A stretch of 64,000 nt of DNA, taken from assembly GCF_035582795.1 (NCBI RefSeq), contig NC_134383.1, positions 2,596,836-2,660,835 on the forward strand, given 5' to 3'. The stretch's first letter is position 1; each line of letters opens with the position of its first letter. This DNA comes from Mycteria americana (Eukaryota; Chordata; Aves; Ciconiiformes; Ciconiidae). Shown one piece after another: positions 15,601 to 18,600 of the stretch. Under the pieces are notes generated by a model that searched no databases, was not told where the DNA came from, and was given only the letters and a program-made list of their open reading frames with translations. A program made the translations under genes and the position numbers.

Positions 15601-18600
15601 TCAGTTTGTCCTGAATCCTTCTGTACCTTAACTAATTCTTTGCCATATGCAACTACTTGGGTTTCGAAGACAATGGCCTGCATGTCATGCAGTTTTGGGG
15701 TGCGTATTCTGTTCTGTAATACCTTAGAAGCTCTAATTAATTGTGCTGTTGCACAAGTCACTCCTACTGTTTTGGTAGGATCAGGTTGGGTAAAATAAGG
15801 ATGAAACAACACATTCATTTAGCATAAAACCTGGCACTGCTACAGGTGATTTTATGTAAAACTGTCGATGAACCATTCCTGAATTTTCTTCAAAGTTCTT
15901 CGGTATTTTGAAAACAAGCGTGTTGGGAAAAGAAGCTTCACTGCATTAACAGTAGCTGTTAACAAATGGTCTTGCAAGCAGACTATATGGTAGTACTCTA
16001 GGAAAATACTTAAAGCAGTATCAAGAAATAGCTATAACTATTTTGAGCATCAGTAAAATGATGATGCTTGCACAGGAAAATTCTGGATCTGCTGTTTCTG
16101 TTTTAATTTAATAGATTATATCTTTCAGCTTAATTTCTTGCCCACCTTACTTAGCATTTGTGACTTTCCCATTCAAATGTCTTCTACTGATCTGGTAGCA
16201 AAAGCACTGTAAAGACTATTTAATGAACTGCTGGAAAGGAAAAAGAGAACCAGTACCATGTGGGCAGTTGGCTCTCTGCAGTTTACCATGGCACATGGAT
16301 CAGAGCTTGGAATTCTTTAGCAGATAGTTCTATAATACAGCATAACTGTAAGTATTATAGAACATGTCTGCTAAAGACTTTAAAAACTCTCCTTTAGTGA
16401 CCTTTGAGACCATTTTGCTGTTGGCATTCAAACTATTTTAAAAAAATGAAAAAGATTTTGCTGCTTGTGTTTGATTGTCAAGCCTGAAGATTTCTTGAAA
16501 TGTCCTGTTAGTGTGTTGAGACGATAAAAGCACAATGTTACCTATAAAATTCTGCTTTTATATCTGTAAAGGGATTCTCTGAAGTGCTATGTAATTACAT
16601 ATTAATATACATTCTTACAAACTGACTAATTTTTTTTCTGTGTTTATGTTGTTTTCAGAATACACAGATGATAATGCCCTGATTCCTAAGAACTCATCGG
16701 TAATTGTTAGAAGAATCCCTGTTGGAGGAGTTAAAGCTACCAGCAAAACATATGTTACGTAAGTATCCATAAAGACACCAAATATTCCCAAGTCAACTGT
16801 GATTTGACACTTCACTGTAGTCACCATTTGTTGATCTACTCTGGCCAGACTGCATCTATGAAAGCAAAGGTGGATGCAAAATAAAGTTTGAAATGTTAAT
16901 TTCCAAATGTCTTTGAACTGCTTTTTGCTTTCCAGCTGTAAGAGACCACACAAGGAGTTACTTAAAACAGCAATGAGAACCAGGGCCACACTCTTAGTGT
17001 TGGTAACTAACCAGTAAGTGAGCAATAAAAGCTTCAAAATGGCAAGCATGACATCAAACCCCTAGCTGGCACCAGGCAAAAGACAGTATGCTGAAATTAA
17101 AGTTATAATGTGATGCGATATGAGAGAGAACAACAACAGTTTCATGAGAATAATAATATACTTCATAAATGTAATTCTTTTAAGCTATTTCCCCCTTACT
17201 CACAAAAGCTCTAACTCCTGTGTATTTCATTTGTTCTTTGCTACCCTGCAGAGTATTGTCACAGACCTCAAAGTTGCATGGCAAAATGGATCGGACTGTA
17301 GCTCCCTTCAGAGAGTTAAGCTGTAACCCTACATTTTTAAGGCTATGGAGCCGTCACTTCCTATTAGTTGAGTTCAGTTAAGTCTGTTAACTGTGGAGGT
17401 GTGGAAAGCCTACATAAAGTCTTCCAGCCTGATTACAGGAAACAAAACCCATTAGATGGAGCTGCAATTTTACATGGTCTCCAGTGAAGATTTGACAGGC
17501 ATTCCTAGTTACAGAAGTGGTCTAACTGAGAACTGCTACAACCTATTTGAGATGCTGCAGTTTAATAGTTTTTGATAGTCAGAAGGTCCTGCTGGCTATT
17601 TACCGTTCAGCAAAAAATTAACAAAAATGTAACTCTTTTGGCTGGCTTATTATGAAATTGGCAGAAATACAGAATTTTAAGTGCATGGTATTTTAATCGC
17701 TTTAGCTGGCAATGGAAGCTTATGGTTAAGGTTCCATTATACCTTGCTGTTCTCATTTGTCTGAATTTTTGGATGAGTAGCTGAGTAGGTTACTCTAGAT
17801 ACTCAGCAGTGAAGCCTTTGTATTAGAAGCTGGATATAAGGAGTCTTCAGGGCTCTTAAATATTTTTGAGAAGATGAAGAAAAAACCCCACTTTTGTAGG
17901 TTGATTTTTCTTTTACAAACGACAGTGTGGTAAGATTGGAATGTAAGCAAAGAACATGAGAGGCAAATGAGTGATCAAAAGAAAGACACAGCTGTTGAAA
18001 GTTACATGCAAGAGACACATTGAAAAAGAATCTGGAATACCTAGAACACTGACACTCAGAGAAAACTTAAATTTAGGGAAACAGGCACAATGTGTTTTGT
18101 CCAGCTAGTACAAGAAATGTACAAATCGAGTGTTTAGATAATAAAAGTCTTTGTATTTGACTTGCTGTCTACCCTGAGAGGTCACCCAGGAGTGAGAACT
18201 TGCCAGAGACCAGAGTTTTGGGGACAGCATATACTTAAGAGTAAGTGCTTGGGAGCAAGTTGAGAACATTAGGTCTTTGAGGAAAAGGCTACTGAAAGCA
18301 AAGAGAAGCAGCAGGGTTCTCCAGCTCAGCTACCTGCAAGTGTCAAGACACAGAAGGCGTACTAAAGTCAATGAAGTGACATTAGTTTGGATTAGCAAAT
18401 ACTCTGGCCCTGACTGCACAGTGCTTTGTGCTAGGACGATGAACTCTACTCTGTCAGAACAAACTGATCTTCAATTAATTATTGAAGAGCTACAGCTACT
18501 CTGACTAGCTGTGCTTTTACTAGGCAGTAATTTAAAAGGCAACAATCTTTATTAGCCTTAATGATTTTTGACAAAACAGTAGGGTTATTTTAAGCTGTAC

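Follow-up and report, generated by a model that had tools for sequence, protein, structure and literature searches.

Introns are known to receive partial gene duplications, and it is against this background that we describe an RBBP6-type exon located inside the SIK2 gene of the wood stork, Mycteria americana. Human RBBP6 is encoded at 16p12.2, and its isoform 3 is described as a DWNN-only form of 118 residues; according to the same 2006 paper the DWNN domain is also expressed as a small protein in vertebrates, and the copy number of the RBBP6 family is low in all eukaryotes (PMC1360078). In 3' processing, isoform 3 reportedly acts as a competitor of RBBP6 (PMC13226542). In the open-licence literature we found no description of an avian RBBP6 expansion, and nothing on the SIK2/RBBP6 exon locus presented here.

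The exon (Table 1) was found in the window, i.e. the whole stretch of 64,000 nucleotides of stork DNA that was analysed. Our preferred reading, with a probability of about 0.62, is that it is a DNA-level fragment of an RBBP6-family gene, likely an RBBP6-like one, which was copied into intron 9 of SIK2 and is now carried as a passenger.

Table 1. The orphan exon, its borders and its host gene in the 64-kb window (position 1 is the first letter of the window).
Feature	Position	Strand	Remarks
Orphan exon	16659..16758	+	100 nt; 32 complete codons + AC; RBBP6 residues 57-88 and part of 89
Acceptor-like border	16639..16658	+	ends TTTTCAG; rank 99 of 9601 AG sites (rough matrix)
Donor-like border GTAAGT	16759..16764	+	rank 169 of 6956 GT sites (rough matrix)
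SIK2 intron 9, host of the exon	14872..18600	-	3729 bp
SIK2 exon 9	18601..18765	-	mapped, GT-AG border
SIK2 exon 10	14643..14871	-	mapped, GT-AG border
SIK2 exons 2-15	9069..54980	-	869 residues + stop

An earlier note on this DNA had claimed a 100-bp open frame on the plus strand between a strong acceptor and a GTAAGT donor, and its coordinates, strand, frame and borders were all as claimed: the reading frame starts at the third base of the exon and is open throughout, and the scores of both borders lie inside the range of SIK2's own sites when judged with a rough splice weight matrix, with which the AG and GT sites of both strands were ranked over the whole window. The note had also assigned the peptide to the DWNN domain of RBBP6, and this assignment is borne out by three comparisons. 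The peptide agrees with a solved structure of the DWNN domain (2c7h) in 24 of 25 common residues (E 1.5e-10), it scores 29.1 bits against the Pfam DWNN profile (PF08783, cut-off 26), and a tblastn search of the window with the N-terminus of human RBBP6 gave 31/33 identical positions (E 3e-16), where the 33 include a Glu that is read over the acceptor border; when only the 32 complete codons are counted, 30/32 are identical. As the next match of this query in the window has an E-value of 0.22, sequence comparison excludes that the exon resembles the RBBP6 family by chance. Where the note had counted two differences from human RBBP6 there are three once the split codon at the 3' end is included, since this codon (AC plus the next base, directly after TYV) can only give Thr after splicing, and the human protein has Ile. 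Ala82 of the exon is also present in chicken RBBP6 (P0013), from which the exon differs only by Val77 and Thr89. The Pfam match is confined to profile positions 55-74 of 74, so the domain is incomplete, and of the 81 residues in the 2c7h structure the exon covers 25, which is less than one third. Its length of 100 nt is not divisible by three and would shift the reading frame, and together with the partial Pfam match this makes the exon a poor functional cassette.

The host gene was mapped as fourteen SIK2 exons on the minus strand (numbered 2-15 after the human protein), with their ends placed near the tblastn ends in such a way that GT-AG held, as it did at all internal borders; SIK2 exon 1 was not found in the window, and is either outside it or went undetected. 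The orphan exon is flanked by SIK2 exons 9 and 10 and is antisense to them, which agrees with the position in intron 9 first proposed for it. The identity of the host is based on protein comparison (best 120 of 839 matches) and not on a structure match, the only match of the kinase piece among solved structures being SIK3 (E 1e-10). In the protein comparison, all 830 aligned residues are identical between the window SIK2 protein and a Mycteria americana isoform (P0198), followed in identity by Ciconia boyciana with 6/867 differences, as expected of DNA from the wood stork or a very near relative. A single stretch of 39 residues of the window protein is missing from P0198, and there is no trace of an RBBP6-type exon in this one listed wood stork isoform. 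P0198 is SIK2 isoform X3, and 39 residues is the size of exon 13 (12039-12155, 117 nt), which is probably skipped in this isoform.

Several other features of the window were recorded. Downstream of the SIK2 stop codon there is a perfect 21-bp AT-rich hairpin (5707-5752), and among 6392 such stretches of the plus strand, the 80-nt one containing it is lowest in folding energy. A second, strong hairpin (16313-16380) precedes the exon by about 280 bp; with -34.4 kcal/mol over 86 nt and a z of -7.9 it has a microRNA-precursor-like shape, is present in a single copy in the window and matches no Rfam family at gathering score. No known RNA family was found at gathering score, and among the six weak RNA-family matches in 16200-17000 the best by E-value was mir-148, with 19.9 bits vs 53. 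The segments 15410-15590 and 29965-30411 resemble avian CR1 elements, of which they would be 3' parts. Relatives of the window DNA in viral and prokaryote collections were searched for with nothing confirmed, and a convergent PP2A subunit gene, considered as a source of antisense transcription, was set aside when a C-terminal piece of the protein gave no match.

In searches for partner exons, the human query detected no other RBBP6 exon in the 64-kb window, and with 120 RBBP6-family queries all matched the exon (E <= 0.002) and none gave anything better than E 0.027 elsewhere, this best of 180 tblastn matches outside the exon being Ser/Leu-rich. A profile made from 27 bird proteins, run against the six frames of the window, gave E 8e-22 at the exon and 3.8 for the next match. 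The same 27 proteins were used for a loose search of intron 9, which produced 120 other matches with E-values of at most 3; the lowest were 0.044 for the minus and 0.18 for the plus strand, and we took all of them as noise. The further DWNN-gene exons that an RBBP6-like gene would have alongside were thus not detected within 64 kb, making it less likely that the exon is part of a larger nested RBBP6-like gene, one of the options raised earlier. The exon does not look like a processed retrocopy: it is a single exon that retains splice-like borders, and no neighbouring exon sequence was seen joined to it without the intron. The proposal that one exon was duplicated into SIK2 together with its intron borders does fit, given that no neighbouring exon was detected in 64 kb and that SIK2 exons 2-15 are intact; it is the source named in that proposal, RBBP6, which is probably wrong in detail.

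The source was approached through 156 different RBBP6-family proteins (the best 120 of 500 and the best 120 of 147 matches), in which 90 bird entries were classed as RBBP6-like by name and five (Gallus, Accipiter nisus, Pavo and two of Manacus) as RBBP6 by sequence; the two Manacus entries have the NCBI name RBBP6-like and were grouped with RBBP6 partly for their Ile77, and if counted otherwise would give 2/92 RBBP6-like entries with Ile. Among the matches listed, the RBBP6-like bird proteins are short and often number several per species, with at least seven entries on two contigs in Mycteria (some perhaps isoforms), and all 90 listed presumably belong to Neoaves. Several of them look DWNN-only, with ends like that of RBBP6 isoform 3. 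In Pezoporus, two annotated RBBP6-like isoforms (gene predictions) part right after this exon, and an isoform pair from Manacus, closer to RBBP6, parts at the same codon (the pairs at this donor codon being P0018/P0037 and P0082/P0116), with an inserted stretch TPKSHK common to both pairs. The parting of the Pezoporus isoforms at this position suggests that the intron was kept in that RBBP6-like gene, and thus that the gene is a DNA-level duplicate and no retrocopy.

In the 90 listed RBBP6-like proteins, residue 77 is Ala (42), Val (38), Pro (5), Leu (2) or a gap (3) and never Ile, whereas in the 66 other listed proteins, which include the five classed as RBBP6, it is Ile in 59, Val in 3, Ser in 3 and Ala in 1, and none of these seven exceptions is named as a bird. 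The exon carries Val77 and thereby the RBBP6-like state, and this, with Ile77 in 0/90 listed RBBP6-like proteins, makes the avian RBBP6-like family appear the likelier source. Against this, Val77 also occurs outside the RBBP6-like set, in P0068, P0078 and P0111, and may therefore have arisen in parallel. Thr89 is present in 14/90 listed RBBP6-like proteins. None of the 90 is identical to the exon at 32/32 residues and 7/90 are identical at 31/32; the highest identity was found for Cariama P0097 (97% over 33 columns of the tree alignment).

The tree was calculated from 100 columns and 61 rows, 51 of them taken from the 90 RBBP6-like proteins, and its bootstrap was unsettled. These 51 rows form one clade apart from RBBP6 (support 96/90), and in the best tree the exon falls inside it; the columns are few, and a placement outside the clade, at a cost of 13.3 log units, is not rejected (p-AU 0.149). 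By tree path the rows nearest to the exon are those of RBBP6 itself, as would fit a short and little changed piece. Weighing residue 77 and the tree together, we put an RBBP6-like source at about three to one over RBBP6. Both tree results, and the mere two differences from chicken RBBP6, are in keeping with a recent copy of RBBP6 itself, in which Val77 and Thr89 would be later changes or native to stork RBBP6. Such an origin nevertheless strikes us as unlikely, although it is the best of the alternatives: it would require both changes to coincide with RBBP6-like states (Val77 in 38/90, Thr89 in 14/90), and it has to contend with the distribution of Ile77 given above. Of the listed stork RBBP6-like copies none is an evident direct donor, as none of the ten keeps the Lys66 of the exon (8 Arg, 2 Gly), yet grouping the exon with nine stork rows costs 8.3 log units and is not rejected (p 0.218). 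The loss of Lys66 in these copies would mean either that the donor is an unlisted gene, or that the copy predates the change, or that the exon comes from RBBP6 after all.

Returning to an RBBP6-like source, a genomic piece with one RBBP6-family exon, probably about the third coding exon of the source gene, and with at least the nearest bases of both introns would have been copied in a DNA-level event, the donor most likely being one of the RBBP6-like genes of birds. It would then have been inserted into SIK2 intron 9 in the opposite orientation in the stork lineage, where on the SIK2 strand it would be ordinary intron sequence that is removed with intron 9, and on the opposite strand an exon without partners. 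DNA-level copying, the RBBP6-like source and the lack of function are what we infer from the comparisons above, and a genomic fragment with one exon would be the simplest route into SIK2.

The function of the exon is most likely none, as it is part of an intron on the SIK2 strand, is without partners, covers less than a third of the domain and would shift the frame. Its splice sites, which score within the SIK2 range, might allow it to be spliced into an antisense RNA, but neither this role nor that of a decoy exon, both suggested in the note, gained support here. What speaks against a passenger is that none of the listed family members is as intact as the exon, unlike what is expected from an old neutral passenger. 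Based on 67.5 nonsynonymous sites (transition-weighted count) and assumed neutral rates of 0.001, 0.0015, 0.002 and 0.0025 changes per site per My, the probability that peptide and splice dinucleotides are still intact falls to 0.05 at 42, 28, 21 and 17 My, respectively. Either a recent copy or selection could explain the intactness: a copy a few million years old needs no selection, and one as old as the root of the family would. The intact peptide and borders, and the 0.05 reached at about 21 My with the rate of 0.002, would accord with an exon kept by selection, whether because it is spliced into a transcript, antisense or nested, or because it controls SIK2. We think this improbable, as selection is unneeded if the copy is younger, no further family exon was detected in the window, 100 nt would break a frame, the domain is incomplete, and P0198 (830/830), the only SIK2 isoform listed for the wood stork, has no trace of the exon.

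A still less probable origin is as the relic of a complete RBBP6-like gene, once located within SIK2 or close to it, of which all other exons were lost. Two birds, hoazin and Phaethornis superciliosus, have an RBBP6-like protein encoded on a contig sized exactly as the SIK2 contig, which makes 2/23 species (2/37 placements) vs 0.36 expected (P 0.05), the expectation assuming a genome of 1.2 Gb and the 23 species being those with both contigs among the listed ones. This was noticed after the fact, a shared contig is not a shared intron, the hoazin and Phaethornis exons are each only 26/32 identical to the window exon, and all other exons would have vanished without detectable trace while this one stayed intact. 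A misassembly joining RBBP6-family DNA to SIK2 is hardly credible, with SIK2 exons 2-15 in order on both sides and an insert of such kind being unusual, as we would expect.

By itself the exon is a curiosity, but it points to a larger matter, namely the RBBP6-like proteins found in many birds, which apparently have a single origin. If expressed, the genes for these proteins would naturally rival a core polyadenylation factor. Very speculatively, modern birds may have a fast-moving, DNA-duplicated family of RBBP6-like genes, mostly of the DWNN-only type, the products of which could be competitors of RBBP6 when mRNA 3' ends are formed, as reported for human isoform 3, and the exons of which scatter into other genes, the SIK2 exon then being a seed kept intact and usable in antisense.

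Compared with RBBP6, the exon has the same sequence character and a donor border at the codon from which family isoforms diverge, and differs in being one exon only, with Val77 and Thr89, antisense in another gene. With the avian RBBP6-like proteins (as named by NCBI) it shares the Val77 state, as well as the high identity to the Cariama protein, whereas those are whole-DWNN proteins, and residue 66, Lys in the exon, is Arg or Gly in the copies of the stork. A processed retrocopy would likewise be a copied gene piece in an intron, but here the splice borders are kept and no exons are joined. The orphan or pseudo-exons that arise from partial gene duplication are also isolated exons with their intron borders in a foreign intron, and the SIK2 exon differs from them in being unusually intact.
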